Below, in pieces: positions 3,272-30,297 of a stretch of DNA of 64,000 nt. The DNA lies in the IMG/VR virus record IMGVR_UViG_3300025674_000021, positions 1 through 64,000 of that record; one strand, 5' to 3'. Made by a program: the position numbers and the translations under genes. Origin of the DNA: a virus. The notes under the pieces were generated by a model. The model had not been told where the DNA came from. It saw only the letters and a list, made by a program, of their open reading frames with translations, and searched no databases. Position 1 is the first letter of the stretch. Each line of letters begins with the position of its first letter.

Positions 3272-3418
3272 ATGGCACGATCTAAAGTTGGAATTGTAAA
3301 AGATAGTTTCATGCCGGGGAAACCCAAAAAAACTCGGCAAGGATCAGGACAGCACACCAAGTGTGCTGCGACCTCACGTAATGGTAAGCAGAAGCGTTAT
3401 CGGGGGCAGGGACGATGA
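3272..3418 (+). CDS. hypothetical basic mini-protein
   Basis: 48 residues, rich in Lys/Arg (GKPKKTRQGSGQHTKCAAT is central; the end is KQKRYRGQGR). It starts two bases after the previous stop and ends in an ATGA overlap with the next gene. The basic, low-complexity character suggests nucleic-acid binding or a disordered protein. No family is assigned. It was too short for a standard length cut-off, but the tight coupling on both sides supports it. Confidence 0.55.
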   Translation: MARSKVGIVKDSFMPGKPKKTRQGSGQHTKCAATSRNGKQKRYRGQGR

Positions 3419-3564
3419 AAACATTTGATAAAGTCCTTAGTTACGTCTTCGTCGGTGTTATTTCAGTTATTGTCTGGGAGTTTGGACATCCATATGTTCT
3501 AGGTACTCATGATGACCATCATCACAGTCATCCAGGCAACGAACACGTTAGAGATTATAAATGA
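3415..3564 (+). CDS. small membrane protein with His-rich tail
   Basis: 49 residues. Residues 7-22 (LSYVFVGVISVIVWEF) form one membrane segment, followed by a His/Asp-rich tail (GTHDDHHHSHPGNEH) that could bind a divalent metal. The start lies in an ATGA overlap with the previous gene. It is the last gene before a strong terminator. A second protein of the same plan lies at 53481. Function is unknown; metal binding is inferred from composition only. Confidence 0.55.
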   Translation: MKTFDKVLSYVFVGVISVIVWEFGHPYVLGTHDDHHHSHPGNEHVRDYK

Positions 3565-15000: not shown

Positions 15001-17968
15001 TGCAATAACTCTTACCAGTCCTGGAGTTGGTAATGCTCACATTCTCGAAATGAAGAAGAAAAATGAGAAGGCACTTATAACAGTAAGCAATGTTGTACAA
15101 GCACCAATTGCATTTACTTACATTCAGCATGATCTTGCTGGAAATGGTGGAAATATTTCTATTGGACAAACGTTCTTCGCACTTTCCGGAATTAGTTCCG
15201 TAAAACCATCTGATGTACTCTTAATTGAAGATGAATATGTGAGAGTTGAAAATGTAGGTTTATCCAACAATACCACAGGACCAATTACATTCTCTGGAAA
15301 TGTTCCTCTTGTAGAAGTTTCTAGAGGTGTTCTCGGAACAGATCCTGCAGAGCATTTAGATGGCACTAGATGTGATCTTTATAGAGGTTCATTCAACATT
15401 GTCAAGAATAATATTCACTTTACAGAACCTCCAAGAGGCAATCAATTAGATCTTCTTGGACCTGATGAAAGCAAACTTCCAAGAGAAAGAGCTACATTTA
15501 GTGGAAGAGTATTCTTGCGTCAAGATTATGACAGTAACCAAGTATATGATGATATCTCCGAACAGTTTACTGGTGTTGGACAAACATTCACACTAACAAG
15601 ATCTGGATTGAATACTGTTGGTCTTGGGACTAGTGGTGGAAGTGGTTTAGTATTCATTAACGGAATATTCCAGGCACCAACTACAGAAAATAATTCTAGT
15701 AATAACTATATCATCGAAGAAGATCTAAATCTTGGAATTTCTTCAATTACATTTAGTGGAGTTGAAGTTGATGATGAAATATTCATTACAGACAATGATG
15801 TAAACCAGAATCAACTTCCTAGAGGAGGTCTAATTGTTTCATATGGTTCTACACCTGGTCTTGGTTACGCACCTCTTGAAGGTGCAAGAGTAACTCCAGT
15901 TCTTAATTCTAGCGGTTCTATAATTGATTTAAATGTACTAGATCATGGATCTGGATATAGAGAACCAGTTGCTATTGCAGTCACTGATCTTTCATATGAG
16001 CATAGATTTGTAAGATCTGACACTAATGCTGTTAGTGCAACTACTGGTGGTCCATTTACCCCAAGTGGAGCAGATTATGACTCATTAACTGGTGTTCTTG
16101 TATTGACAATTGCAGATCATGGTCTTGCTGGAACTGATACCATCTTAATTGCAGATAATTCGATATACTTTACATGTGCTAGAGACAACTTTGCTTCTGA
16201 GCATTCGTATCCAAGACCAACTGATCCTGCTTCTGGTGTTAATCTTCCAATCACTTCATTTACAAATAACACAATAACTGTAAATGTAGGACCTGGTGGC
16301 GGCACAGGAACTGATGGAGTTATTAGTGCTGTTGTTGGTGTAGGAGGAACTCTTATCTTCACCATCGATAATTCTGGAACAGGATATATTGATCCTGTTG
16401 TTGATATTGAAGATCCTGTTTATGAAAATATGGAAATCATTGGTGTTTCTCGTTTAGGGGAGGGTGCAACTACAGATACTGGTGTTGGATTACTAGTTAA
16501 TGTTGAAATTGGAGCAGCAAAAACTTCTGTCGGTATTGGATCAACATTATTCGAAGTCAGTAATTTCCAAATTACTAGAACTGGATATGGATTTAAGCGT
16601 GGTGATATATTTACTGTTGATGGTCTTGTTACAGACAGACATCTTACTGAACCTGTAGAGCAATTCCAAATTTCTGTTCTTGATACATTTACCGATTCCT
16701 TCAGTGCCACACAATTCGGAGAACTTGATTATATCGACTCTATTGCACCTTATCAAGATGGTGAAAGAGTAAGATTCCCTCTAATTTACAAAGGTGAGAA
16801 TCTAAGTTTCCAGACAGATGAATTAGATCCAGAATCTTCTTCTATCGATCTTAATAATGTCTTAGTTATATTCAATAATGGAATTCTTCAAGAACCAGGT
16901 AGTTCTTATTTCTTTGATGGAGGATCTACTTTCATCTTTGCGGTTGCTCCAAGAGCATTGGATGATGTTCAAATATTCTTCTACAGAGGAACTAGAGGAA
17001 TTGATAGTACTCAGTTCGAAGTTGATGAAACTATTAAGGTAGGAGATATCGTCCAAGTAATGGCATCAAATCAGAATGATGACACGATTGCTCAAGAAAA
17101 GAGAAGAGTTTACACTATTGATAGTGCTGATGTTATTCAAACTGATGCATATCCTTTCCAAGGAATTGATCCAGTAAATTACAAACCCGTACATTGGACA
17201 AAACAGAAAGAAGATTTGATTATTAATAATGAAAGAGTTTCTAAAGCGAGAGATAGTATTGCAGCACAAGTTTATCCAACATCAAATGTTATTGCCTCCA
17301 TTGAATCAACATCAACTACTTTCTGGTTAGATAGTGGAGAATTGTGGAACTATGAAGATGATGCAGTTCTTACAACTGATGCTTTACTATACACCAATAG
17401 AGAAGCAGTTGGTATGGGAACAACTATGGCATCACTCAATTATGAAACAGTTGTAAATATCAATGATATTGATTCATTCGTAGCACAAGTTGTTGGAATA
17501 ACAACTGTTCCTGGTGTTGGTGGAGCAGATCTTGCAATTCAATTTACAATTGAAAGAGATCCATTCACATTCCCTGGATTTGCAGTCGGTGATTACTTCT
17601 ATATCTCAAAGACATCTGTAGGTTCTGGAAACGTCAGTATTGAAGATAATGACACGGAGATTGTTGCAACATCTACAGCATTCTGTGACAACATCTATAA
17701 AGTTGCTGAATGGACTGAACTTACAGGAGTTATTAAAGCAAACGTAAGGTCTGATAGTCCAGTAGTTGGTCTTACATCAACAGGAACTCTCTTATATCCA
17801 TGTGGAACACTATCTTTTGCTCGCCTCTCCGGAGCTGAAAGAAGACCTAACAATCCTCTCAGCATTGACATTTCTAATTATACTTCTAGCAATAGTGGAC
17901 TATCTACATACCCAATTCTACAAAGACGTGATGCGGGACTCAGAGATACTGGTGCCCTAGAGTTATAA
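6002..17968 (+). CDS. gp7: giant baseplate protein at the gp7 position, with YHYH-like domain and beta repeats
   Basis: 3988 residues in one open frame; T4 gp7 has about 1030. Only the N-terminal 250 residues (FVEFLKQYYISQEYQGGP and following) look like a wedge attachment domain. The rest is a chain of beta-rich modules: a lipid- or fibre-like segment IDNEIITY...CIRGFSG near 100-130; several repeats of the type HGL/HGF-x2-G-x2-I-x-Y (near 840, 960, 1810, 2930); GG-x-DY/GSGY repeats (near 742, 1069, 1113, 1150, 2115, 3315, 3459); and a YHYH-like region (GWAYDGNPIYG near 1240). It probably forms the peripheral wedge arm and may contact host glycans. The gp7 name rests on order (6-7-8) more than on similarity. 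Confidence 0.75.
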   Translation: MQNAGFGERVKIQQIIENQLPEFILGENPKFVEFLKQYYISQEYQGGPVDIADNLDRYLKLDNLTPEVIRGNTHLTESITSTSETINVVSTKGFPPKYGLIRIDNEIITYTESTETTFEGCIRGFSGVTDYHAELNQEELVFESTSAADHANESIIYNLSSLFLQEFYKKLKFSLTPGLENLDFAENLNVANFVKEARGFYESKGTDESFRILFNVLYNESPTIINLEDFLLKPSDASYIRRSVVIVRPLSGSINDLEGQTIYKSTDNVTTASVSEIESFTRKGVTYYKLNLFVGYDDTNPTITGTFDVTQNTRVVDDVTISGTEPIHTISVDSTVGFDHNGLIYSNHKPIYYTEKTLNQFLGCYTNESEPILIDKTDYVHGSNTYYGYADGDENQKVEFLITGVLSNAVIDNEKFNFKSGDVISPKSLGTTVSKDGSKLSIFTNAWLYNTSTRYQIDTFSGSTITTKVSIDRNTLKAGDKVEILSRNTEIVPVGFDDITILSIAEDGTITLNVSTTPLAIPGTSYDVRRLLKKATSSTADIQYGNNVVSSDVQNVYIDKEDVVYVASNSLPGYEITSPIFEYEISSLDEFDNVSQGYSVIRFNDVVSFLTGDKVKYIPNESDPIEGLNEEFYFVDVLSDKTSIKLYQNGVTIPSTDFLKFGTSDTISSGNNIILFEQRTKTINPQKILKKIDLKQEVEDNVSSSILPGALGMLKNGAEIFTFKTNDKVYYGPLESINILNGGKDYDVINPPLLEIPGTADISPVIIGSVKSVYVDPQDFDFEKIISIDLTGGNGSGAKFEPVVEKFARQIDFDAREFNLGGGLDIVNERITFTKPHGLIDGQEITYNKVNNLAIGIEPFQGPNTDSGESLIDGAIYYPEIINDQTIRIYRNYSDFFAGINTVGFSTIGASGIHKFKLETKNRLSEIRVTAGGEGFAYRNLKVNTSGISTTNHFIEFENHGFSEGEIIEYTPDGTPISGVSSTTKYKVLFIDENRFRISDAGVDGIDNTNYDRHKYVKFNNAGTGRHHFSYPEINMVVNFSSPGAGNTSIIATPVIRGSIDQIYIFDKGEDYGTTTLNVHSRPKISVLNGKEAQFSAVVENGQISRIRILYGGLDYYSTPDLVVESPTGIGAVLRPVIKGGTIIDVIIVTGGLNYANGTTAVYPVSAGSGAIFQANVRPLTVNSSIKFGVQNQFYRDPASEIITTGSNGLQYAVVSYSQNIKNQLGDNGDLEGKHSDIIGWAYDGNPIYGSFGYSNPDDINSTVRRLTPSYEITNVENRPSTSIFPRGYFVEDYKYTATNDLDQYNGRFGKTKDFPDGVYAYFATTELNADGQTVGKFPYFVGHNYKSEYIQENDNLDQSFDLNSTNVLRNTLPYGVSNQFADNDFLIESNEVIKQETLIESVSAGGVNGYEVIKAGTDYSIGDRVTFELESGTSPFIKVSEIQGKDIETIRTDITSYDDTIITWKNGSKIIFTIYPYHDFNNGDNINIIGVSTDKIDIQGSYEVGVTTVTSLLSSQLNEFNMTGFATDVFVNYVPENVSVGNTVTIDDEFFQIIGVNSKQNILTLRRDNLGVAHTFGTQVRYLPYQFEINKEMEAFTSNIPKRVNFNPQKSVGVGIVTGTGVTLDYTVGLTTYQTFVETKSIFLQNHPFKTGDKVTIKKPTASDAIPIRVPNLGTVDVPDIIDELFVIRKTSDFIGLVTTVGLTSESQGVFFENNGSDNFDYIIETIEDNITATSERINAVVSVSTSHNLERGDEISLEVKPNINVGIGTTNKILVKYLNNNLIVNPISFSTTEVNSQKNTITVEEHSYVTGQKVFYDSGDDIISGLSTGEYFVYKVDENTIRLAETYVDATSVPPLLVGFGNTGGDLQFVAAVNPPIANYKNNNLIFDVSDDSLQGYDFKFFYDNSFKNEFDSFTSDGTFVVTGVGGSVGFSSIARVNLNFSETTPEVLYYNLAQDGIPINTTDNDVSHHSEILFKDSLYNSDHKVMGTATTEFSVALRQLPESLVYLKEDCDVIKYTTKSQTATGGIESINIVSQGYGMKSLPVFSGVESINGAGAFIVPVSDSIGNIISDKLRNEGYEYPSDNTVRPSAIIPQEVFLADSNTIDTIEIIFGGQDYASAPDVVLIDTDTREIIDSGYIRAKVNGASITDLDIEFPANGLPIKPVTMKTINNSNGINIDKVEYSQSGIVTCTITTPIFGFTQQPLEQGQEIFVEGIEKVSGSTGDGINSTDLGFNFFRITQYYATNPVKFEYDVSDYTNNGGNIKFIQEGYATVINKDNYPEFKVNQKGSQFLIDESLSVISDAQITSDDLRVISADSNIIRVLGSRILKVGERISGNSSNSAGTIDFIRNSTGSYNTSWTNLKEFDWKYNIGKLNENAQVLPDNDYYQNLSYTIKSSKSWEEIVGNVNSLVHTSGMKNFADMQFTESTQSGISTESPESVITVTNSYISDLRVDRINYFDNAIDINISGNVSRFLKFKNTYLLDFILCKTNNVIAIDDISSEFSSRNDVKSDTQNLSFLNSANNYNKFYIQSRDLITNQIQFSEIITLNTNNQIYTLFKSDLSNFDYNIADIEPVFSANFEYFLGVTANDPDNAAIVFKTLNETVSGVSLTSGNVDLNMIQIEAISCNASVGVNTTLFSLPADDFDAAHVSVHIKNADNSKMNYIELYVTHDNVDTYMNEFFFDSDGEQSFDILGEFTADIVDGNFILEYENTINEGLVARSRTIGFGTVTEGDGDYRFKLDDQPIGSERSLMYQTFNTVVAAGTTAIFELEASEFAAVKSVVSVGQGENSAVHQITTICDGEDAYIMQNPFLSVGPKSGIGTFGANYDSNTGEFSLIFTPDSYFDVTRVKALNTQFYKDFDFINPTPDLEYDPFVEDVKLSSYYGVNVDLGINFDFAAKVDGVDIFAKTFNPNSSAVNYTTNEFNLNSHFFQPYEELIYTPQSSFIGVGTEPIEIEELEVSAGVLTTHLPTQVFAIKIDQNTFKLATTRENAIAGIAITLTSPGVGNAHILEMKKKNEKALITVSNVVQAPIAFTYIQHDLAGNGGNISIGQTFFALSGISSVKPSDVLLIEDEYVRVENVGLSNNTTGPITFSGNVPLVEVSRGVLGTDPAEHLDGTRCDLYRGSFNIVKNNIHFTEPPRGNQLDLLGPDESKLPRERATFSGRVFLRQDYDSNQVYDDISEQFTGVGQTFTLTRSGLNTVGLGTSGGSGLVFINGIFQAPTTENNSSNNYIIEEDLNLGISSITFSGVEVDDEIFITDNDVNQNQLPRGGLIVSYGSTPGLGYAPLEGARVTPVLNSSGSIIDLNVLDHGSGYREPVAIAVTDLSYEHRFVRSDTNAVSATTGGPFTPSGADYDSLTGVLVLTIADHGLAGTDTILIADNSIYFTCARDNFASEHSYPRPTDPASGVNLPITSFTNNTITVNVGPGGGTGTDGVISAVVGVGGTLIFTIDNSGTGYIDPVVDIEDPVYENMEIIGVSRLGEGATTDTGVGLLVNVEIGAAKTSVGIGSTLFEVSNFQITRTGYGFKRGDIFTVDGLVTDRHLTEPVEQFQISVLDTFTDSFSATQFGELDYIDSIAPYQDGERVRFPLIYKGENLSFQTDELDPESSSIDLNNVLVIFNNGILQEPGSSYFFDGGSTFIFAVAPRALDDVQIFFYRGTRGIDSTQFEVDETIKVGDIVQVMASNQNDDTIAQEKRRVYTIDSADVIQTDAYPFQGIDPVNYKPVHWTKQKEDLIINNERVSKARDSIAAQVYPTSNVIASIESTSTTFWLDSGELWNYEDDAVLTTDALLYTNREAVGMGTTMASLNYETVVNINDIDSFVAQVVGITTVPGVGGADLAIQFTIERDPFTFPGFAVGDYFYISKTSVGSGNVSIEDNDTEIVATSTAFCDNIYKVAEWTELTGVIKANVRSDSPVVGLTSTGTLLYPCGTLSFARLSGAERRPNNPLSIDISNYTSSNSGLSTYPILQRRDAGLRDTGALEL

Positions 17969-17991: not shown

Positions 17992-19566
17992 ATGTCCGCA
18001 CTTGTAACAGACCAGTTCCGAATTGAAAATTCCGCGAACTTTGTTGAGTCAGTAAATGACTCAGATAACTCCTACTATGTCTGGTTGGGACTACCAAATC
18101 CCAACCTTTATACTGGTTTTGCCAGGAATCTTAATTGGAAAGGTTCTGAAGGTGTAACTGTAGGCGTAGTACCTAACCCAGTTGATAACGGCAGTTATCT
18201 ATCCCAATACAAAGATTCCTTACTCTTTGGAAAGAGAATCACATCTTCTAATGTCAAGAGGATTGTGAAGAGAGTTGATTGGGTGAAGGGTAAGAAATAC
18301 GACATGTATCGTCACGATTATAGTGATGCTAACTTATCTACAGTTTCTAAAACTGCACGATTGTATAATTCAGAGTTCTATGTAATCAATAGTGACTTCA
18401 ACGTATACATTTGCATTTCGAATGGTTCTGGTGGAACATCAAATCAAGCAAATCAGTCCCAATACGAACCAACTTTCACAGATCTAGAACCATCAATTGC
18501 AGGAAATGGATCTGATGGTTATATTTGGAAGTATCTTTTCTCTATCTCACCATCAGATATTATTAAATTTGACTCTACTGAGTATATTACTCTTCCTGAT
18601 AATTGGTCAAATAGTACAAACAGCAGTATTGTATCTGTCAGAGAGAATGGAAACTCTGATGATAATCAGAATCAAATTAAAACGGTCTTTATTGATAATG
18701 ATGGGACCGGATATTCTTCTGGAGAAGTTGATATTCTAGGAGATGGTACGGGTGGTAGAGTATTCATTGAAGTAAATGCTTCTGGGGAAATTACCGATGC
18801 AACGGTTACTTCAGGTGGAAGTGGATATACTTATGGTATTGTTGATTTAGGACCACTTCAACCACAAGGATCAATTTCAGATCCAGCAAAGTTAATTCCA
18901 ATCATCCCACCATCTAAGGGACACGGTTACGATATTTACAAGGAACTGGGTGCTGATAAGGTTCTAGTTTATGCTAGATTTGATAATACTACTAGAGATT
19001 TCCCAACAAATACATCATTCTGTCAGATTGGTCTAATTAAAAATCCATCTAGCGTAGGTTCTGGACAAACTTTCTATGATGGAGAGTTTTCAAACCTTGG
19101 AGCAGTGATGTTCGACCAAGTTAATGAGTTTATTCCACAGGTAGGAGAAAAAATTACTCAAACTGTAAATGCAATAGATACCGCTAAAGGTTATGTTGCT
19201 TCTTATGATGCTGATACTAAAGTATTGAAATATTTTAAAGATAGATCTCTATTTAATTCAACCACTCAAGATGAAACTGATTATATCGGAGTTTCATTAG
19301 GTGCTAAGGCAAACGTAGAATTTGTAAATTCAGGTCAGAATATTATTGGTTCGGACAGCGGATTCTCAGGATCTGTTGCTAATTTTACAGGAATTACTAC
19401 ATCAGTAAACAATTCAATTATTAATCTTGGGATCTCTTTTAATAATGGACTCGCAACTTCTGAGATAAATAAAAAGACAGGAGATATTCTCTACGTTGAT
19501 AATAGACCTCTTGTCTTTAGGAATGATAGGCAAAAAGAAGACATCAAAATTATTCTCGAATTTTAA
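17992..19566 (+). CDS. gp8: baseplate wedge subunit gp8, with extra repeat domain
   Basis: 524 residues against 334 in T4. The core shows gp8 features: an N-terminal region with YYVWLGLPNPN, then VNSEFY/VINSDFNVYICISN and DGYIWKYLFSISPSD. An inserted segment, residues about 230-290, carries two GTGY/GSGY beta repeats like those in the neighbouring giant protein and in gp14. gp8 dimers sit in each wedge next to gp7 and gp10. It has its own late promoter. Confidence 0.88.
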   Translation: MSALVTDQFRIENSANFVESVNDSDNSYYVWLGLPNPNLYTGFARNLNWKGSEGVTVGVVPNPVDNGSYLSQYKDSLLFGKRITSSNVKRIVKRVDWVKGKKYDMYRHDYSDANLSTVSKTARLYNSEFYVINSDFNVYICISNGSGGTSNQANQSQYEPTFTDLEPSIAGNGSDGYIWKYLFSISPSDIIKFDSTEYITLPDNWSNSTNSSIVSVRENGNSDDNQNQIKTVFIDNDGTGYSSGEVDILGDGTGGRVFIEVNASGEITDATVTSGGSGYTYGIVDLGPLQPQGSISDPAKLIPIIPPSKGHGYDIYKELGADKVLVYARFDNTTRDFPTNTSFCQIGLIKNPSSVGSGQTFYDGEFSNLGAVMFDQVNEFIPQVGEKITQTVNAIDTAKGYVASYDADTKVLKYFKDRSLFNSTTQDETDYIGVSLGAKANVEFVNSGQNIIGSDSGFSGSVANFTGITTSVNNSIINLGISFNNGLATSEINKKTGDILYVDNRPLVFRNDRQKEDIKIILEF

Positions 19567-19569
19567 GAA

Positions 19570-22500
19570 ATGGCACAAAAAACAGATTTAAACGTAAATC
19601 CATATTTTGACGATTTTGATGCGGACAAGAATTTTTACAAAGTTCTATTCAAGCCTGGAACTCCAGTTCAGTCAAGAGAATTAAATAATATTCAGTCGAT
19701 TCTACAAAATCAGATTGAGTCATTTGGAAGTCATATCTTCAAGGAAGGATCGTTAGTAATTCCTGGCGCTATTTCATATGATCCTCAGTATTATGCAGTT
19801 AAACTGAATCAAAACTTTTCAAATATTGATATCCAAGCATATATTAGACAATATCTTGGAAAAACTATCGAAGGTCAAAATTCTGGAGTCACTGCATCAG
19901 TTCAGAGAATAGAAATTCCTGATGCTATCAATAATCTTGACTCTATTACATTATATGTCAAGTATCTTGCAGCAGATAATAATAACGAAATCTCTCCATT
20001 CAGTGATGGGGAGATATTGACTTGTGACGAAAGTGTTATTTACGGCAATAATACAGTAATTAATGCTGGAGCAGGTTTTGCATCCCTCATTTCTTTAGAT
20101 GCTACCTCGACAGGATCTGCAGTTTCTGTTACTGAAGGAATTTACTTTGTTAGAGGAACTTTTGCTAAGATCTTCAAAGAAACAATTATCCTAGATTATT
20201 ACACAAATACTCCAACCTACAGAGTAGGTATTAAAGTATCGGAAGAGATTATCAGTGCAAAAGATGATCCTTCCCTGTATGATAACGCAAAAGGATTCAA
20301 TAACTATTCTGCACCTGGTTCGGATAGATTTAAATTAAATCTCTCTCTTACCAAAAAATCAATTGATAGTGTCGATACTGATACTGATTTTATTGAGATT
20401 CTGAGAATCGTAGACGGAGAAATTAAGAAAGTATCCGTACAATCTCAATACAATCTAATCAGAGATTATCTTGCACAGAGAACATATGATGAATCAGGAA
20501 ACTATGCAGTTACTCCTTTCGGAATTTCTGTTCATGAAACCTTAAATAATAATCGTGGAAATGATGGACTGTTCTTTGAAGGTGAATCCACAGATCAAGG
20601 TAATATACCTACAGATGACTTAATGTCAATTAAGTTGTCCCCAGGTAAAGTATATGTTAGAGGTTATGATGTTGAAAGAACAGTAACTTCTATTATTGAT
20701 GTTAACAAACCAAGGCAAACTGTAGAGAATCCAGAACAAACTGTAAATTTGCAGTTAGGAAATCTACTTAGAGTAAATAATGTTCTTGGAACACCAAAAC
20801 AGAATGCTCCTATTGAACTGCACTCCGTAAGAAGAACTTCTGGAACAAACATTCCTGCACCATCAACGTATATTGGTCAAGCAAGAGTATATAATTTCTC
20901 TCTAACTGATGCCGCTTATACTAATGCAGCAACTTCCTGGGATTGCTACCTATATGATCTCCAGTTATTCACAACAATTCAAACTACATCTGACTTTGCT
21001 GCAGGAACTGTTCATGAAGGTTCTAGAGTTAGAGGAGAGAGCAGTGGTGCTCTTGGATTTGCCGCAGCAGCTACAGCAAATTCTACGCTTACAGTAACTC
21101 AGGTATCTGGAACCTTTGTTAAGGGAGAAAAAGTTATTATTGATGAAAATGAAAATATCAAGAGATCTACTGCCTCAGTAACTGCTTGGGGTATTGATGA
21201 TGTAAAGCAATTTTACATGAGCAGTACTGTAAGTGGATTTAATTCTAATTTCCTTGCAGATACTATTTTAGAAAGAAGATTACCTGTAGGATTCAATGCA
21301 TCCGATAGTTTGTTTATTGACGGTGCAGGAAACGCAACTTGCCCAGGTAAGTTCTTCAATGGTAAAGTTAAAGTAGGAGACATTGTAAGATATACTGTTC
21401 CTACCGAAACTGATGAAATTTTTAACGTAGTTGGATCAATATCACCAACTGGTAATAGTATTGGTTTAAATGCTGTACAAGCAGTTGCTGGAGTATGTCA
21501 AGGTGCTGTTCAAGCAAGTGTTACTGCATCATCTTTCTCAATCGGAAAAGCAGAAATTAAGAACAGCGATATTGATGGTCTGTATGTAACCCTTAATCAA
21601 GATAATGTTGCAACTTTAGATCTAAACAATTCTGATTTAATCTTTACAAAACAAAGAGTTCTACAAAAAGCGACAGGTGGTAGTGGTCAGATTACTCTTA
21701 ATGTATCTGAATTTGATGTCCCAATCGGATCTAATTTCTTAGCATTTGACCAAGAGAGATATTTTATTCAATATGATGATGGATCTATTGAAACTTTAAG
21801 TTCTGAAAAATTTACTTACGGTAGTGGAACAGTAACTATTAGAGGTTTAGAAGTCGGAAAAACCACTAATATGATTGTTGCTACGTTTGAAAAACCAACA
21901 ATCTCTAGTAAAGTTAAAGTAAATAAAAAATCTGAAATTTTAGAAATTACACTTTCTAAAAATCAAGAATCAGGTTCTACAGAAGGATCTACAGTTAATG
22001 ATGGTTTGACATATAATGCTTACTATGGATTAAGAGTTCAAGATAGAGAGATCTCTCTGAACTACCCAGATGTAAACTCTGTTCTTGCTGTCTATGAATC
22101 CCTGAATTCTGATGCTCCAATTTTAGACAAATTGACATTCAGTAGCATTTTTGCAATTGGAGATAATGCTATTGTTGGTGAAAATATCTTAGGTCCAGAA
22201 TCAAAAACTCTTGCAAGAGTAGTAAGAAGATCAGTTAACAGTGTTGATATTGTATATCTAAATGATAATAGATTCTTGAAGAATGAGTTAGTAACATTCA
22301 AGGAATCCAATATTCAAGCAGAGATTGATGTCAATACTCCAGGAAAATATTTAAACATCTCCAATAAATTTAGATTAGATTCTTCTCAGAGAGAACAGTT
22401 CTACGATTATTCTAGAATCGTAAGAAAAACTGGAGAAAATTCTCCAGCAAAACGTTTAATGGTTATATTTGACCACTTTGTTGTAGATGATGAGGATGAA

Positions 22501-25500
22501 GGTGATCTCTTCACAGTCATGAGCTATGATGAGAGAGATTATAAAACTAGAGTTCCTCTTATTGGACCAGAAAAATTAAGAGCAAGTGATACTCTAGATT
22601 TTAGACCTCGTGTTCCTGTGTTTACCGGAACTACTTCATCTCCATTCTTCTTTGGTTCTAGAGATTTTACAAATTCAGTTCCAGTCAATGTTGCTCCAGA
22701 AGAAACAATTCAAGTTTCTTACACATATTATATTGGAAGACAAGACAAACTTTATATCAGTAAAGATGGTGAGTTTGTATACCTTCAAGGGAATGATTCA
22801 CCAGATCCATCTGCACCAGTAAAAGATGGTGACATGATGGAGTTGGCAACCTTTACTCTTCCACCATATCTCTATGATATGGATCAGGTTGAAGTATCTC
22901 TTCGTGAAAATAGAAGATATACGATGAGAGATATTGGTGCGATTGAAAGTAGAGTTACTAATCTTGAGAATGTAACATCACTATCTCTACTAGAACTGAG
23001 TACACAAACATTAGAAGTTCAGGACTCTGAAGGTTTCAATAGATTTAAATCTGGTTTCTTTGTAGATGATTTTAGATCTCTTGATAGATCTAATCTTGGA
23101 TATACTTTAGCAGAAATTGATGATACTGATACTGATGCTGGTCTTGTTCCAACAATATCAAGAAATAGCATTCCAAACTATCTTGCTCCTTCAGAGAGCA
23201 TTATTGATGAACAGCTTGACCTCTCTGTTGACTACGACCTGTTTGATCCAGGAGTAGTTAAGAGAAATGAAACTGTTATGCTCAAATACACTAGCAAAAA
23301 GTGGATTGAGCAACCTCTAGCAACCCGTGTAGAAAATGTAAACCCATTCCATGTTGTAGTATACCGTGGAACAATTGAATTAAGTCCCTCTAGAGATACT
23401 TGGACTAGAACAGTAGAACTACCAGATATCGTTAATAACGAAAGTCAAAGATTTACTGTTACTGAAAATAGAACAAGAAGAGGACCAGATATTACAACAA
23501 GAGTTCCGAACCCTAGAAGAAGAGGAGATACCGAAGTTACAGGACGTAGAGTTACAAGAAGTTCTGCAATCACTAATAGACAGAGTAATAGTATTACTCT
23601 TAGATCTAGAGTCCTAGTTGATACTCAGTCAGAAAGATTCATGAGATCCAGAAACACTGGATTTACTGTTTCTAACCTGAAACCATACACCAGATACTAT
23701 CAGTTCTTAGATGGAAATTCTCAGGTAGATTTTATTCCAAAACTTTTGGAAATTTCTCCAAACTCTTCCTTAACTAATTTTGGTTCTACTTCATCTTTCA
23801 ATCCAGGTGAAACTGTAAAAGGATACTTCAATGGAAGAAATATTCTTGAATTTAGAGTTGCAGCATCAAATCATAAAACTGGAAGATATGATAGTCCAAG
23901 TACTACCTTTGGAGTAAATCCTTATGAAAAAGGAGGAACTATTTCTTCTAACTATAGTAATACCTCTAAAGTACTGAATGTCGATATCAATTCCTTATGC
24001 AGAGAAGCACAAGGAAAATATCGTGGTTATGTCGAAAAAGGTATGAAACTGGTTGGTCAGACCAGCGGTGCAGTAGCATATTTGAAGGATAAGCGTCTCA
24101 TTACGGACAATTTTGGTGATCTATTTGGATCATTCTTCCTGAAAAATCCACTTAGAAATCCAGCACCTAGTGTAAGGATCAATACTGGAACAAAGAGCTA
24201 CATCTTAAGTTCTAGTAAAACTAACGCAGAAGCAACTCCAGGAAGCACTACAATTTCAACTGCAGAGACAAATTACACTGCTGAAGGAACAATTCAAAGG
24301 TTCCAGACAACCATTACCAATATAACAACTACAGTTAGAACAAGAACTAATACTAGAACTGTTCAGAGAAGAGTTACTGAGTTCTATGACCCACTTGCAC
24401 AATCTTTCAGTGTTGGTGGAAGTGGAACTGCAAATGATGATGAGCAGGGTGCATTCCTTAGCGGTGTCGATGTTTATTTCTCCACTAAGGATAGCGGAAC
24501 TAACCCTGTAACAGTTCAGGTCAGAACAGTTGAACTTGGAACACCAACCAGAGAAGTTCTTGGTATTCCTGTTGTTCTGAGACCAGATCAGGTCAATACT
24601 TCAGAAACAGGCACTGTTCCAACTCACGTTGATTTCCCATATCCAATTTATCTTGCTCCAGGTCAAGAATATGCAATCGTTCTCGTAGCACCAGAAACTA
24701 CTGGTTACGAAGTATTCATTGCAGAAATGGGTGAAAAGACATTGCAAACAGGCAATCTTCCAGATTCTGAATCTGTACTTTACACTCAACAGTTTGCACT
24801 TGGTAGTTTGTTCAAATCCCAAAACGGATCTATTTGGACAGCAAATCAGTATCAGGATATGAAGTTCACACTATATCGTTGTGAATTCACTCCAAATACA
24901 CCTGCTACTGCATGGTTCTACAATCCAACTCTAGATGCAAGTAATGGTTATATTCCAAATCTTGCAGAAAATCCAATTACGGTTATTCCTAGAAGATTAA
25001 AAGTTGGTATCACTCCTACTAACAATCCTGCAACTATTGCTGCACTATCTGTCGGAAGACAAGTTAGTGACAGTGTAAAAACATATGTTTCTGGAAATAT
25101 CATTCAAACTGGTGGACCAGTCGGTAGCGTTAGTGTAGTAACTGATTTTGCTGGAACTGGATATCCATCTTCAGCAGACATTCCAACCTACAATATTGTT
25201 GGTGAAGGATCTGGTCTTACAGTTGACATAACAGTTAATGCTGAGGGTCAAATAACATCTGCTGTCGTTAACAATGAAGGTAATGGTTATGAGAACGGAA
25301 ATATTGTTGGTATCGTAACTGCTGCACTTAACCCAACTACTGGTTTTGGTGCTCAGCTTAGAGTTGATGGTGTAACTGATTTAGATACTCTCTTCCTTAC
25401 AGATGTTCAAGGAGATTCTTTCAATACAGACGGAACATCAGAATTAATCTACGTAGATAATGGTGCTAATGTTCTTCTCTCTGGAGTAGAAATTCTAACT

Positions 25501-26868
25501 TCTAGTACTATTTCTCCAATATTTGATGGATCACATATGTTTGTACAACATTTCAATCACGGAATGTATTCAAACAATAATAGAGTTGAAGTATCTGGTG
25601 TTCTTCCAACAGCAGTTCCAACAACTCTTGATGGATCTATTTCTAACAATGCATCGGTAATTCCTGTTGCAAGCACAGAGGGATTCGATACCTTTGAAGG
25701 AGTTGCAGTCGGCAACGCAAATCCAGGTTATGCTTTAATTGAGAATGAGTTAATTAAGTACGAATCTATTGGAGTAGGAGCATTAGAGACAGTATCAAGA
25801 TCTCAAGATCAAACTATTGCACTTCCTTATGATAGTGGAACATCCATTGTTAAGTATGAAACTCAGGGAGTATCTCTTAGAAGAATCAATACGGTACATG
25901 ATATTAGTGATACACGTCTATCTATTGACTCGTATTTCTTAGAAATTGATCGTTCTGCTAATGGTGTTGATAGAAGTTCTGATAATAATGTATTGAATTA
26001 TCCAGCATTGTCTTTCTCTGGTCTACTTAATTGTGGAGGTCCTGACGTAAGAGCGTCAGAAAATATACAGTTTGATACTATCATTCCATTCTATAATATT
26101 GAGAATCCAACTGGTGCTACCAATGTAACTGGTAAAATCAGAACCGTTAGCGGAACTAGCGTTAGTGGTACGGAGATATCATTCCGAGATAATGGATATG
26201 AGGATATTCAACTTAATACTATAAACAGATTAGGATCTTCTAGAATCATTTGCTCCAGAGTAAATGAGCAGTTCTTCCTAACTGATTTACCAAGAAATAA
26301 ATCATTTACGACAGCTCTGGCACTGTCTACAACTGATAAGTATCTAAGTCCTCAAATCTTCCTTGATCTATCCTTTACTGAACTTCAAACTTACAGAATC
26401 AATCGTCCAGTAACGAATTACATTACAGATTCTCTAACGAATACTGTTGATGATGATCCACATACATCAATTTACGTTACTAACACGGTCAATCTAGCAC
26501 AACCAGCAACATCACTGAAAGTAATTCTATCTGCAAATAGACCTTCTGCAGCGGACTTTAGAGTTCTTTACAGCGTAAGTGCATCAGCAACTGATGTTCT
26601 TGACTCTTATGTTCTGTTCCCAGGTTTTGAGAACTTAACTGCAGATACTGATGGTGATGGTTATCTAGACGTTATTGATCCATCTCAAAATAATGGAAAA
26701 CCAGATAAAGATATCCCTGCAAGCAGGGATGGTGAATACCTTGAATATGAATTCTCAGTCGGAGGACTTCCAGAGTTCTCTACATACAGAATCAAGGTAG
26801 TCATGTCATCTACAAATCAGGCAACTCCACCACAATTCAGAGATCTTAGAACACTAGCGGTAAGATGA
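19570..26868 (+). CDS. large virion structural protein, DUF4815-type N-terminus
   Basis: 2432 residues. The N-terminus (VNPYFDDFDADKNFYKVLF, then PVQSRELNNIQSILQNQI) matches the DUF4815 family of cyanophage structural proteins. The position after gp8 is where T4 carries gp9-gp12, so a role in the outer baseplate or fibre attachment is likely. Later parts include Arg/Thr-rich coiled stretches (near 1270-1370), GTGY/GNGY repeats (1862, 1904) and a segment near 2040-2110 (ALIENELIKYE...VSRSQD...VSLRRINTVHD) that echoes the giant protein. It overlaps the next gene by four bases. Confidence 0.8.
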   Translation: MAQKTDLNVNPYFDDFDADKNFYKVLFKPGTPVQSRELNNIQSILQNQIESFGSHIFKEGSLVIPGAISYDPQYYAVKLNQNFSNIDIQAYIRQYLGKTIEGQNSGVTASVQRIEIPDAINNLDSITLYVKYLAADNNNEISPFSDGEILTCDESVIYGNNTVINAGAGFASLISLDATSTGSAVSVTEGIYFVRGTFAKIFKETIILDYYTNTPTYRVGIKVSEEIISAKDDPSLYDNAKGFNNYSAPGSDRFKLNLSLTKKSIDSVDTDTDFIEILRIVDGEIKKVSVQSQYNLIRDYLAQRTYDESGNYAVTPFGISVHETLNNNRGNDGLFFEGESTDQGNIPTDDLMSIKLSPGKVYVRGYDVERTVTSIIDVNKPRQTVENPEQTVNLQLGNLLRVNNVLGTPKQNAPIELHSVRRTSGTNIPAPSTYIGQARVYNFSLTDAAYTNAATSWDCYLYDLQLFTTIQTTSDFAAGTVHEGSRVRGESSGALGFAAAATANSTLTVTQVSGTFVKGEKVIIDENENIKRSTASVTAWGIDDVKQFYMSSTVSGFNSNFLADTILERRLPVGFNASDSLFIDGAGNATCPGKFFNGKVKVGDIVRYTVPTETDEIFNVVGSISPTGNSIGLNAVQAVAGVCQGAVQASVTASSFSIGKAEIKNSDIDGLYVTLNQDNVATLDLNNSDLIFTKQRVLQKATGGSGQITLNVSEFDVPIGSNFLAFDQERYFIQYDDGSIETLSSEKFTYGSGTVTIRGLEVGKTTNMIVATFEKPTISSKVKVNKKSEILEITLSKNQESGSTEGSTVNDGLTYNAYYGLRVQDREISLNYPDVNSVLAVYESLNSDAPILDKLTFSSIFAIGDNAIVGENILGPESKTLARVVRRSVNSVDIVYLNDNRFLKNELVTFKESNIQAEIDVNTPGKYLNISNKFRLDSSQREQFYDYSRIVRKTGENSPAKRLMVIFDHFVVDDEDEGDLFTVMSYDERDYKTRVPLIGPEKLRASDTLDFRPRVPVFTGTTSSPFFFGSRDFTNSVPVNVAPEETIQVSYTYYIGRQDKLYISKDGEFVYLQGNDSPDPSAPVKDGDMMELATFTLPPYLYDMDQVEVSLRENRRYTMRDIGAIESRVTNLENVTSLSLLELSTQTLEVQDSEGFNRFKSGFFVDDFRSLDRSNLGYTLAEIDDTDTDAGLVPTISRNSIPNYLAPSESIIDEQLDLSVDYDLFDPGVVKRNETVMLKYTSKKWIEQPLATRVENVNPFHVVVYRGTIELSPSRDTWTRTVELPDIVNNESQRFTVTENRTRRGPDITTRVPNPRRRGDTEVTGRRVTRSSAITNRQSNSITLRSRVLVDTQSERFMRSRNTGFTVSNLKPYTRYYQFLDGNSQVDFIPKLLEISPNSSLTNFGSTSSFNPGETVKGYFNGRNILEFRVAASNHKTGRYDSPSTTFGVNPYEKGGTISSNYSNTSKVLNVDINSLCREAQGKYRGYVEKGMKLVGQTSGAVAYLKDKRLITDNFGDLFGSFFLKNPLRNPAPSVRINTGTKSYILSSSKTNAEATPGSTTISTAETNYTAEGTIQRFQTTITNITTTVRTRTNTRTVQRRVTEFYDPLAQSFSVGGSGTANDDEQGAFLSGVDVYFSTKDSGTNPVTVQVRTVELGTPTREVLGIPVVLRPDQVNTSETGTVPTHVDFPYPIYLAPGQEYAIVLVAPETTGYEVFIAEMGEKTLQTGNLPDSESVLYTQQFALGSLFKSQNGSIWTANQYQDMKFTLYRCEFTPNTPATAWFYNPTLDASNGYIPNLAENPITVIPRRLKVGITPTNNPATIAALSVGRQVSDSVKTYVSGNIIQTGGPVGSVSVVTDFAGTGYPSSADIPTYNIVGEGSGLTVDITVNAEGQITSAVVNNEGNGYENGNIVGIVTAALNPTTGFGAQLRVDGVTDLDTLFLTDVQGDSFNTDGTSELIYVDNGANVLLSGVEILTSSTISPIFDGSHMFVQHFNHGMYSNNNRVEVSGVLPTAVPTTLDGSISNNASVIPVASTEGFDTFEGVAVGNANPGYALIENELIKYESIGVGALETVSRSQDQTIALPYDSGTSIVKYETQGVSLRRINTVHDISDTRLSIDSYFLEIDRSANGVDRSSDNNVLNYPALSFSGLLNCGGPDVRASENIQFDTIIPFYNIENPTGATNVTGKIRTVSGTSVSGTEISFRDNGYEDIQLNTINRLGSSRIICSRVNEQFFLTDLPRNKSFTTALALSTTDKYLSPQIFLDLSFTELQTYRINRPVTNYITDSLTNTVDDDPHTSIYVTNTVNLAQPATSLKVILSANRPSAADFRVLYSVSASATDVLDSYVLFPGFENLTADTDGDGYLDVIDPSQNNGKPDKDIPASRDGEYLEYEFSVGGLPEFSTYRIKVVMSSTNQATPPQFRDLRTLAVR

Positions 26869-27077
26869 TTAAAGTAGAGGGACATTCAAACTTATATCGT
26901 GATGAAGATTCTGGCGCTATTGTCAACACTGATAGTAGTGCCTATAATCAATATGTGAATAGTTTGAATAATAGGAGGAAACACAAAGAAGAAATTGCCG
27001 ATCTTAAGAATGAAATTAATGAAATCAAATCTCTACTAAAGGAGTTTCTAAATGGATCCCGACAGAATAACACTTGA
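26865..27077 (+). CDS. small coiled-coil protein
   Basis: 70 residues. The start (ATGA overlap) is coupled to the large structural gene. The N-terminal half reads VEGHSNLYRDEDSGAIVNTD, a pattern seen in T4-type phages next to neck genes. Residues 35-65 form a charged heptad-like helix (RRKHKEEIADLKNEINEIKSL). It could be a small virion or assembly factor, but its role is not known. Confidence 0.7.
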   Translation: MIKVEGHSNLYRDEDSGAIVNTDSSAYNQYVNSLNNRRKHKEEIADLKNEINEIKSLLKEFLNGSRQNNT

Positions 27078-27240
27078 TTCAATCGCTAAGAATTTTGAGT
27101 TTGAAAAAACTTCAAGACAGATCGATACTTTGGATGGGGAGGAATTAAAAAAAATAACTAAATATTTTTTTAAGATGTACTTGAAACAACAAGAAGTTGT
27201 TACAAACATGATGCGTGAAGATATTATGAGAGGTCTTTAA
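27052..27240 (+). CDS. hypothetical small helical protein
   Basis: 62 residues, overlapping the end of the previous gene by 26 bases in another frame. It is helical and charged, with SIAKNFEFEKTSRQIDTL, LKKITKYFFKMYLKQQEVV and a final MMREDIMRGL. A ribosome site (AAAGGAG) lies 8 bases before the ATG, inside the upstream gene. No function is recognised. Its place between baseplate and neck genes suggests a virion assembly role. Confidence 0.65.
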   Translation: MDPDRITLDSIAKNFEFEKTSRQIDTLDGEELKKITKYFFKMYLKQQEVVTNMMREDIMRGL

Positions 27241-27258
27241 TAGTAATACGGGGCATTC

Positions 27259-28098
27259 ATGGCAAAACCTACAAATAGACAAGAGTTAATAGATTATTGT
27301 TTGAGGCAACTGGGTGCTCCTGTCCTAGAAATCAATGTCGCAGAAGATCAAATAGATGACATTGTAGATGATTGTATTCAATATTTCCAGGAAAGGCACT
27401 TTGATGGTGTAACTCAAACCTTCCTGAAGTATCAGGTAACTCAAGAAGATATCGACAGAGGCAAAGCAAGTAAAGGAACTGGACCTGGAGTAGAGTCCAC
27501 TTCCGTAACTGCTAATGTCGGAACTGCAACTACTTTTACATACACTGAAACAGCGAATTATCTGCCGATCCCAGATCATATTATTGGTGTAAATCAGATT
27601 ATGCAATTTGAAGGATCTAGCAGCCTTTCTGCTGGAATGTTCAATATTAAGTATCAACTATTTTTGAATGACGTTTATTATTGGGGATCTACAGAACTTT
27701 TAACCTATCAAATGGTTAGAACATATCTTGCAGATATTGACTTTTTACTATCAACAAAGAAAAATATTAGATTTAATAAGAGATCAAATAGATTATATCT
27801 TGATATCGATTGGGATACTCTAAAAGCAGGAGAGTTTCTTATCATTGACTGCTATAGAGCATTAGACCCATCAAAATATGAAGAAATTTGGAACGATTCT
27901 TTCCTTAAAAAGTATATCACAGCTTCAATTAAAAAGCAATGGGGTCAGAATCTAATTAAATTCCAAGGTGTCAAACTCCCAGGAGGTTTGGAGTTCAATG
28001 GAAGACAGTTATATGAAGACGGACTAAATGATATTAATGCTCTGATGGATAAGATGTCCAGCACATATGAGTTACCACCTTTAGACATGATCGGTTGA
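27259..28098 (+). CDS. gp13: neck protein gp13
   Basis: 279 residues (T4 gp13: 309). The N-terminus NRQELIDYCLRQLGAPVLEINV followed by DQIDDIVDDCIQYFQERHFDG is the hallmark of T4-like gp13, the head completion protein that seals the portal with gp14 after packaging. The C-terminal part carries the WNDSFLKKYITASIKKQWGQN segment typical of the family. It heads the neck-packaging block. Confidence 0.93.
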   Translation: MAKPTNRQELIDYCLRQLGAPVLEINVAEDQIDDIVDDCIQYFQERHFDGVTQTFLKYQVTQEDIDRGKASKGTGPGVESTSVTANVGTATTFTYTETANYLPIPDHIIGVNQIMQFEGSSSLSAGMFNIKYQLFLNDVYYWGSTELLTYQMVRTYLADIDFLLSTKKNIRFNKRSNRLYLDIDWDTLKAGEFLIIDCYRALDPSKYEEIWNDSFLKKYITASIKKQWGQNLIKFQGVKLPGGLEFNGRQLYEDGLNDINALMDKMSSTYELPPLDMIG

Positions 28099-28102
28099 TA
28101 TT

Positions 28103-29530
28103 ATGCCACTAAATCCATTTTTTCTTTCAGGTTCCAAAGGTGAGCAAGGTCTCATACAAGATTTGATCAATGAACAGATCAAAATGTATGGGGTCGATGT
28201 TCACTATATCCCTAGAAAATTCTTAACTAAGAATACAGTTCTCAAGGAAGTCATTGAATCACAGTATGATTCTGCCTTCCCTATCGAAGCATATATTTCG
28301 AATTCTAATGGTTTCGGTGGACAAGGAACCTTACTATCTAAGTTTGGCATCACTGAAGTCGATGATCTTACCCTTGTCATCTCAAGAGAGATCTTTGAGT
28401 TGTACATTACCCCTCTCCAGAAGAATCTAGAAGATATTGAGCTTGCTACAAGACCAAAAGAAGGTGATCTAATTTTCTTCCCACTGGGTGACAGAATATT
28501 TGAAATTAAGTATGTGGAGCACGAATCTCCATTTTATCAACTCAAGAAGAACTATGTTTACGAGTTGAGATGTGAACCATTCAGATATGGAAACGAAGTT
28601 ATCGATACGAGCATTGACGTTATCGATAAGTCCGTTGAGGATGAAGGAATCATCACCACACTCAGTTTTGTTGGTGGTGGTAGAACAGCAACTGCTCAAG
28701 TAATCATGGGACTTCAGTATGTAACTGAAGTATTCGTCAATGAAGATGGAAATGGTTATGACTTCCCACCAAGTGTTACCTTTAGTCCTCCAGAAATACC
28801 AGGAGGATTTACTGCTAGAGGTTTTGCATTAACCACAAGTGTTGGAGATGCATCATCTGTATACGATGTCATCCTCTCTAGTGCTGGTTCTGGGTATGAA
28901 AATCCACCAACCATTACATTTGCTGGTGGTGGAGGTGCTGGAGCTGCAGCAACTGCTTCAATTGCAGGTGTTGGAGTCACTGGAATTATTGGATTCCAAA
29001 TGTTTGATAGAGGTGAGGGTTACTTAGATGATGGAGATGCCGTCATAACAGTTACACCTCCTAACGATGTAAATCTTGCTCCAGGTGCTGGAGTAACCGC
29101 AGTTGGTATCGCATCGGTACAAAATGGGCAAGTAGTTTCTATAAATATTCTTAACAGTGGCATTGGATATACTGGCGCAGGTATTTCCACAGAGATCAGT
29201 GTTACCGTATCTTCACCAAGATACGCCGGATTCGGAACATATCTGTTCAACGAAATAGTAACCGGACAAACATCAGGAGTAGAAGCAAGAGTCAAATCTT
29301 GGGATGCTCCATCCAGAGTCCTCAAAGTCGCAAACGTCAGTTCCAACGTACAAAACGTATCCTTCTATCCAGGTGAAGTTGTTGTTGGTTCTTCATCTTC
29401 AGCATACTACAAACTTGCCGAATATGATTCTGAGGATCTTAATGATCCATTTGCAGAAAATAAAGACATTGAAACGGAAGCAGATGCAATTCTTGATTTC
29501 TCTGAATCAAATCCATTTGGTAACTATTAA
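28103..29530 (+). CDS. gp14: neck protein gp14 with repeat insertion
   Basis: 475 residues against 256 in T4. Residues 1-185 are gp14-like (NPFFLSGSKGEQGLIQDLIN, VHYIPRKFL, GDLIFFPLGDRIFEIKYVEH). Residues about 190-375 are an insertion of four beta repeats with GNGY, GSGY, GEGY and GIGY signatures, each with a PP-x-V/I-TF strand or similar. The end (DFSESNPFGNY) returns to gp14 type. gp14 connects the portal to the tail; the insertion would project from the neck. The stop overlaps the next ATG by one base. Confidence 0.9.
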   Translation: MPLNPFFLSGSKGEQGLIQDLINEQIKMYGVDVHYIPRKFLTKNTVLKEVIESQYDSAFPIEAYISNSNGFGGQGTLLSKFGITEVDDLTLVISREIFELYITPLQKNLEDIELATRPKEGDLIFFPLGDRIFEIKYVEHESPFYQLKKNYVYELRCEPFRYGNEVIDTSIDVIDKSVEDEGIITTLSFVGGGRTATAQVIMGLQYVTEVFVNEDGNGYDFPPSVTFSPPEIPGGFTARGFALTTSVGDASSVYDVILSSAGSGYENPPTITFAGGGGAGAAATASIAGVGVTGIIGFQMFDRGEGYLDDGDAVITVTPPNDVNLAPGAGVTAVGIASVQNGQVVSINILNSGIGYTGAGISTEISVTVSSPRYAGFGTYLFNEIVTGQTSGVEARVKSWDAPSRVLKVANVSSNVQNVSFYPGEVVVGSSSSAYYKLAEYDSEDLNDPFAENKDIETEADAILDFSESNPFGNY

Positions 29531-30297
29531 TGTTAGGAACATACTACTATCACGAAATACTCAGAAGAACTACGATTGCTTTTGCAACGTTGTTCAATGA
29601 TATTCATATCAGACATAGAAAAAAAGGAACTGATAAAACTACTGATATCAAAGTTCCTCTGAGTTATGGTCCTATCCAAAAGTTCCTTGCTCGTCTTGAG
29701 CAACAACCAGAATTAGAAAGACCGGTTCAAAACGTTCTTCCTAGGTTGTCATTTGAAATGACTAACATTCAGTATGATGCTAGTAGAAAAACTTCTATCA
29801 CACAAACTTTTAAAGCATGTGAGGATGGAGGTCAAATAAAGAAAGTATTCCTACCAATACCTTATAATATTGGGTTTCAACTTAATATGATGAGCAAAAT
29901 TGAAGAAGATACTCATCAAGTAGTAGAACAAATTCTACCATTTTTCCAACCAGCATTTAATTTGACAGTCGATCTTGTCGATTCTATTGGTGAGAAGAGA
30001 GATGTTCCTGTGATCCTAGATAGTGTTAGTTTTACTGATGATTATGAAGGAGATTTTTCAAGTAGAAGAGTTTTAATCTATACCTTCAATTTCACTGTCA
30101 AGACATATCTCTTTGGTCCTATCGCAGACAGTACCGATGGACTCATCAAGAAGGTTCAAGTTGATCTCTACAGCAATACTGATGTTCAAATTGCTAAGAG
30201 AGAAACTAGATATACAGTAACTCCAGATCCTATTGATGCTTCACCAGACGATGATTATGGATATAACGAATCCATAGAAAATCTATTCGATCAATAA
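29530..30297 (+). CDS. gp15: tail sheath stabilizer / tail completion protein gp15
   Basis: 255 residues (T4: 272). It starts MLGTYYYHEILRRTTIAFATLFNDIHIRH, the conserved gp15 beginning, and contains VPLSYGPIQKFLARLEQQPEL and the IPYNIGFQLNMMSK strand pair. gp15 caps the finished tail with a hexamer that contacts gp3 and the neck. It lies in the usual 13-14-15-16 order. Confidence 0.93.
   Translation: MLGTYYYHEILRRTTIAFATLFNDIHIRHRKKGTDKTTDIKVPLSYGPIQKFLARLEQQPELERPVQNVLPRLSFEMTNIQYDASRKTSITQTFKACEDGGQIKKVFLPIPYNIGFQLNMMSKIEEDTHQVVEQILPFFQPAFNLTVDLVDSIGEKRDVPVILDSVSFTDDYEGDFSSRRVLIYTFNFTVKTYLFGPIADSTDGLIKKVQVDLYSNTDVQIAKRETRYTVTPDPIDASPDDDYGYNESIENLFDQ

Follow-up and report, generated by a model that had tools for sequence, protein, structure and literature searches.

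A GxGY repeat family in neck and baseplate proteins of a T4-like cyanophage, with a probable role in virion decoration

Repeat-bearing genes of the virion cluster

The DNA analysed here is a stretch of 64,000 nucleotides (the window), which is part of a 101.7 kb IMG/VR virus record (IMGVR_UViG_3300025674_000021). Gene order and best matches identify the source as a T4-like cyanophage of the Kyanoviridae; S-SRM01 and P-SSM2 are the closest named phages. The window contains the genes from gp6 to gp15 that are listed in Table 1. The place of gp7 is taken by a giant protein, and a DUF4815 protein is encoded between gp8 and gp13. A short repeat with a GxGY motif is found in the giant protein, gp8, the DUF4815 protein and gp14, all of which are virion assembly proteins. 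No repeat was found in gp6, gp13 and gp15 of the window, and none by profile search in the remaining 37 kb of the record. The initial annotation had described the four carriers as neighbours within positions 17992-29530. Three of them are indeed encoded there; the giant protein gene lies outside this span, and gp13 separates the DUF4815 gene from gp14. According to the annotation of two relatives, S-SRM01 has an HNH gene between gp14 and gp15 (L083, 30513-31040), and MA10 has a homing endonuclease gene that separates gp13 from gp14 (L089, 2564-3217).

Table 1. Genes and repeat features of the window. Giant, giant protein in the place of gp7; bits, profile scores.
Feature	Residues	Position in window	Strand	Remarks
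gp6		4051-6000
Giant	3988 residues	6002-17968
Giant, repeat just before the next one	1056-1075	9167-9226	+	8.0 bits, E=0.011
Giant, GxGY repeat	1093-1132	9278-9397	+	34.2 bits; E=5.5e-6 with gp14-only profile
Giant, GxGY-type repeat	2104-2128	12311-12385	+	12.7 bits
Giant, GxGY repeat	3295-3328	15884-15985	+	12.5 bits
Giant, GxGY repeat	3441-3473	16322-16420	+	16.9 bits
gp8		17992-19566
gp8, GxGY repeat 1	225-255	18664-18756	+	21.9 bits; strands 231-236, 244-250 (model); G238 and Y241 invariant in 64 gp8
gp8, GxGY repeat 2	260-280	18769-18831	+	17.0 bits; strands 253-261, 267-277, 282-284 (model); G275, G276 and Y279 invariant in 64 gp8
DUF4815 protein		19570-26868
DUF4815, GxGY repeat 1	about 1847-1887	25108-25230	+	GTGY at 1862; segment matches gp8 family, E=1.3e-6
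DUF4815, GxGY repeat 2	1888-1928	25231-25353	+	E=0.05 with gp14-only profile; repeat pair matches gp8 repeats by hhalign, 96%, E=1.7e-9
gp13		27259-28098
gp14		28103-29530
gp14, core (counterpart of T4 gp14 stopper barrel)	1-180	28103-28642	+	PF11649, E=3.7e-26; phmmer to T4 gp14, E=2.2e-22
gp14, GxGY repeat 1	195-238	28685-28816	+	42.9 bits (gp14 profile), 34.6 bits (general profile); strands 197-204, 207-217, 224-227 (model)
gp14, GxGY repeat 2	243-283	28829-28951	+	28.9 bits; strands 239-247, 250-260, 271-274 (model)
gp14, GxGY repeat 3	282-333	28946-29101	+	19.8 bits; strands 279-287, 293-302, 314-317 (model)
gp14, GxGY repeat 4	332-379	29096-29239	+	31.8 bits; strands 334-340, 343-351, 367-369 (model)
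gp14, M2 first copy	377-412	29231-29338	+	61.8 bits, model positions 1-36 of 36; intact here, interrupted by the array in two-repeat gp14
gp14, M2 second copy	420-444	29360-29434	+	29.5 bits
gp15		29530-30297

In gp14, the core is followed by an array of four repeats and by two copies of a second small module near the C-terminus, which we refer to as M2 (consensus SGTFIFNETVTGSTSGATARVKSWN...). The window gp8 is a member of PF09215 (E=7.7e-13), and its model matches T4 gp8 in a Foldseek search (E=2.9e-8). Both proteins are longer than their T4 counterparts, and the extra length had been attributed largely to the repeats. This applies to gp14, where about 185 of the 219 additional residues belong to the array (aa 195-379). 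It does not apply to gp8, in which the repeats make up about 60-65 of the 190 additional residues and the rest is found in the C-terminal half. Soon after its strongest repeat, the giant protein has a YHYH domain (PF14240, E=6.9e-26; aa 1234-1330, window 9701-9991).

Relatedness and predicted fold of the repeats

The GxGY motifs were confirmed at the positions initially annotated, namely residues 238 and 276 of gp8, 1862 and 1904 of the DUF4815 protein, and 216, 262, 304 and 353 of gp14. With four motifs, gp14 exceeds both the expected number (0.29) and the maximum of two reached in 500 shuffles; gp8 has three (0.23 expected, shuffle maximum two), of which the third, at residue 310, does not lie in a repeat. 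The bare motif count of the giant and DUF4815 proteins does not exceed that of shuffled sequences (maxima 7 and 5), and the real evidence therefore comes from profiles.

A profile was built from the gp14 repeats of relatives alone and run against every open reading frame of the window, with 20 shuffles and a reversal of each as controls. Apart from gp14 itself, its best matches in the window lay in gp8, the giant protein and the DUF4815 protein, and most were above all controls (best control 4.5 bits, E=0.15). The matches are clear for the giant protein (best match aa 1097-1132; also aa 3302-3328, E=0.023) and for gp8 (aa 260-280, E=0.0012; aa 226-243, E=0.013). The match to the second DUF4815 repeat is borderline with this profile and strong by hhalign. 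When separate repeat profiles of gp14, gp8, the DUF4815 protein and the giant protein were aligned by hhalign, they matched each other pairwise, mostly with 90-97% probability; weaker values (22-55%) occurred only in pairs including one short segment of the giant protein. Control segments of the same proteins gave about 0-1%, with two exceptions: 13% for the C-terminal segments of gp14 and gp8, and 26% for the DUF4815 repeats with the C-terminal segment of gp14. We put both down to the M2 module. The PHROG families of gp8, gp14, gp7 and others also cross-match the repeat segments.

The proposal that one repeat family is common to the four proteins is thus upheld by profile search and hhalign. 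The alternative would be convergence, in which low-complexity glycine-rich hairpins of separate origin came to resemble each other; the repeat is short with few fixed residues, and the motif counts of the two largest proteins would fit such a view. However, the hhalign E-values (mostly 1e-6 to 1e-11) span the hairpin, the turn and the third strand, with next to nothing in controls from the same proteins, and shuffled or reversed sequences fail to score. We consider convergence highly improbable.

AlphaFold models were computed from alignments of 68 gp14 and 64 gp8 sequences. The repeat unit comprises about 43 residues. In both models, a full repeat is predicted to run from a beta-hairpin through the GxGY turn into a short third strand; in repeat 1 of gp8 the opening strand is missing. 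Comparison of these two models revealed an identical strand order in the repeats of both proteins. The pLDDT is above 90 at aa 211-290 of gp8 and about 80-92 at aa 191-300 of gp14, being lower in the last two gp14 repeats; a pTM of 0.43 makes the whole gp14 model and its domain placement uncertain.

The gp14 model matches T4 gp14 in Foldseek (E=1.3e-8), and searches against the PDB revealed no credible solved fold for the array. Matches such as lysenin had low probability; credible matches were limited to the cores known from T4 and, with the gp14 model, to neck proteins of other phages. In a viral structure library, one part or another of the gp14 model matched many virion proteins, among them a cyanophage YHYH protein, P22 gp10-type proteins and Tenacibaculum phage neck proteins. 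Pfam and NCBIfam contain no family naming the repeat, and a search of the repeat segments against Pfam (E up to 10) gave no Ig-like, carbohydrate-binding or other meaningful match. Sequence search against the PDB gave one weak match, to the Dpo31/Dpo36 tailspike (E=0.0064); the PDB matches of an idealised triple-consensus query were at chance level only. In the papers searched for GxGY-type motifs and for cyanophage neck and baseplate structures, we found neither a description of the repeat nor a structure carrying it.

Distribution, insertion sites and exchange

Among the fetched loci, all 100 gp8 proteins have one or two repeats. In gp14, four repeats (88 proteins) and two repeats (87) prevail, and 13 proteins have other numbers; that of S-CRM01 has none. 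Repeats are absent from gp13 in 184 of 186 cases. The two exceptions are either the GenBank and IMG/VR copies of S-CRM01 or S-CRM01 and L257, where an insert is seen in the alignment. In gp13 of S-CRM01 (L088, 27613-28755) and of the IMG/VR contig L257 (3001-4218), the insert is about 100 residues long and includes repeat-like segments; other gp13 proteins lack it. The repeat also occurs in tail fibre families.

The gp14 array is located directly upstream of an intact first M2 in all 88 four-repeat proteins, and inside the first M2 in 82 of 85 two-repeat proteins (two unclear, one upstream). In S-RIM44 and 76 relatives, retrieved with the S-RIM44 protein, the first M2 is intact and the array absent. 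Since the array lies before M2 in one class and within M2 in the other, it either entered gp14 at two sites or moved once. The number of repeats follows the gp14 tree, and sites and copy number are fixed per clade. In a tree of the gp14 core (39 rows), the four-repeat forms group in a single clade (support 99/97), and three changes in total explain the three states; ACG-2014f and S-CAM7, for which the profile scores two repeats only, were assigned to the long forms on account of their length and their intact M2. In gp14 of MA10 (L089, 1511-2545) and S-CRM01 (L088, 28760-29812), the stretch after the core is a different segment without GxGY repeats.

A close pair of gp14 genes, contig L424 with and S-RIM44 without array, differs in one block. 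In steps of 60 bases, DNA identity is 78-98% up to base 540 and 92% close to the end; around the array it is 50-62% over most aligned bases, and there L424 is mostly equally near or nearer to S-CAM4 or S-RIM2. This pattern of sequence identity fits an allelic cassette exchange between phages, in either direction. One site of the DUF4815 protein is occupied by two repeats in the window and its relatives and by M2 in S-RIM8, ACG-2014d and S-RIM2; in MA10 and S-CRM01 it is empty, as judged from the alignment. At this site one module stands in for the other in different clades, which shows a module swap. The M2 copies lie at aa 1897-1933 of L086 and aa 1956-1992 of L087, the repeats at 25108-25353 of the window.

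A mobile module copied between assembly partners had been suggested initially. Recurrent insertion at different sites of neck and baseplate proteins of relatives bears out the first half of this suggestion; copying between neighbouring genes finds no support. In favour of such copying within one genome, similarity between repeats of the DUF4815 protein and the giant protein is higher than in permuted genomes (equalled in 2 of 200 permutations), albeit with few repeats and in one of six tests; gp13 of S-CRM01 moreover has repeats where its gp14 has none. However, cross-protein similarity within genomes was not raised in the other five of the six protein pairs, the nearest repeat in another genome mostly belongs to the orthologous protein (18 of 20 for gp8, 59 of 74 for gp7 and 25 of 34 for gp14), and the exchange detected is allelic. 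Recent copying within a genome is unsupported by these data, and we regard this origin as very unlikely. It is improbable, though somewhat less so, that neck and baseplate form a plug-in system in which the M2 turn and nearby sites would act as sockets and GxGY arrays would be placed and exchanged by recombination, thereby varying the contact with the host envelope.

When an idealised consensus was run against genomes of bacteria and archaea, it hit 80 loci from many phyla. A phage-only profile confirms the repeats in the cellular proteins, with up to 50 bits per copy and up to 27 copies per protein; summed phmmer scores are inflated by the multiple copies and were left out of any donor inference. 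A hydrophobic, secretion-like N-terminus was predicted in 52 of 70 cellular repeat proteins versus 87 of 160 other open reading frames, a rough test with weak contrast because the latter include spurious ones. Bacteria thus bear the repeat in proteins that often look secreted, judging from their N-termini. Some carriers match multicopper oxidase, autotransporter repeats or PilY1. Large proteins with GxGY repeats and multicopper-oxidase-like matches are encoded in a Neobacillus (L302, 3656-7972), an actinobacterium (L278, 254-5479) and a Methanoperedenaceae archaeon (L283, 3539-8476).

Possible roles and comparison with known systems

The repeats probably lie on the virion exterior, with the gp14 array flanked by the stopper barrel and by the tail segment that docks on gp15 in T4. 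In T4 gp14, residues 178-256 are disordered until docking, upon which they bind gp15 (PMC12270204). As the array of cyanophage gp14 follows the core and precedes the conserved C-terminal segment, six arrays probably ring the neck-tail joint. The most likely reading, to which we assign a probability of about 0.6, is that the repeats are a single family of beta-modules inserted into neck and baseplate proteins as virion decoration. Pairs or arrays of these modules, each about 43 residues long, would lengthen and cover neck and baseplate and add contact surface between subunits. They would also present a rapidly changing surface through which the virion makes weak contacts to cell or medium, as Ig-like domains do on other phages. 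M2 would be a tolerated host site, with arrays lying just before or within it and the two modules replacing each other at the one DUF4815 site.

Two other roles have to be weighed against decoration. The repeats could be purely structural, filling out or stiffening the neck-tail joint and the baseplate and contacting adjacent subunits without any outward role. The fixed sites and copy numbers, the presence of repeats in every gp8 examined and the restriction to virion assembly proteins in the window are in favour of this, as are the positions at which 90% or more of the gp14 repeats agree (14 G, 6 A, 6 P, 4 Y, 2 N, 1 T and 1 I), whose residues look structural. It is less easily reconciled with the low identity of gp14 repeats (51%) relative to the gp14 core (73%), with the spread of the same family over tail fibres and bacterial proteins, and with a clade that manages without the gp14 array. 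We consider a purely structural role possible but doubtful; the arrays may have a role in assembly contacts alone. The clade without array tells us that gp14 can occur without it and is silent on the role of the array.

Alternatively, the repeats may be glycan-binding modules that hold the virion to cyanobacterial polysaccharide or lipopolysaccharide, as considered in the initial annotation. Their rapid change would be in line with this, as would their presence in tail fibre families, the weak match to a polysaccharide-degrading tailspike and the secretion-like N-termini of many cellular repeat proteins. However, no W, F, H, D, E, K or R is conserved in the gp14 repeats, and thus there is no common binding site; nor do the repeats match carbohydrate-binding families of Pfam, the array matches no solved fold, and a whole clade does without it in gp14. 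Since the conserved residues look structural, decoration is likelier than a fixed glycan site, and glycan binding appears unlikely.

The repeat is widespread across virion families of phages and in bacteria, yet without a name in Pfam or NCBIfam. Its occurrence in the neck stopper and the baseplate wedge indicates that abundant marine phages have taken up exchangeable modules beyond their tail fibres. Cyanophage gp14 occurs naturally with zero, two or four repeats, and among these are forms that match closely but differ in having or lacking the array; its role in adsorption and stability is therefore open to study by comparison and removal.

With respect to known systems, the window gp14 and gp8 are true members of the families of the T4 neck stopper (PF11649) and baseplate wedge protein (PF09215), and differ from the T4 proteins by carrying repeats. 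The bacterial and archaeal proteins (L258-L337) share the repeat according to the phage-only profile, but are cellular. Two stretches of the Dpo31/Dpo36 tailspike (PDB 28lx, 8ck1) resemble the first half of the unit, the better one ending in ITITDGGSGY, by sequence alone. The closest analogy is that to Ig-like domains, as in T4 Hoc, which is nonessential in the laboratory (PMC10385173), and in insertions of major capsid proteins: these are likewise small beta modules on virion proteins, variable in number and sequence. The GxGY repeat belongs to another sequence family, forms a predicted hairpin-plus-strand unit and is found in neck and baseplate wedge proteins. We therefore describe it as a family uncatalogued in Pfam and NCBIfam that would work like the Ig-like virion domains and, by its sequence, is not one of them.
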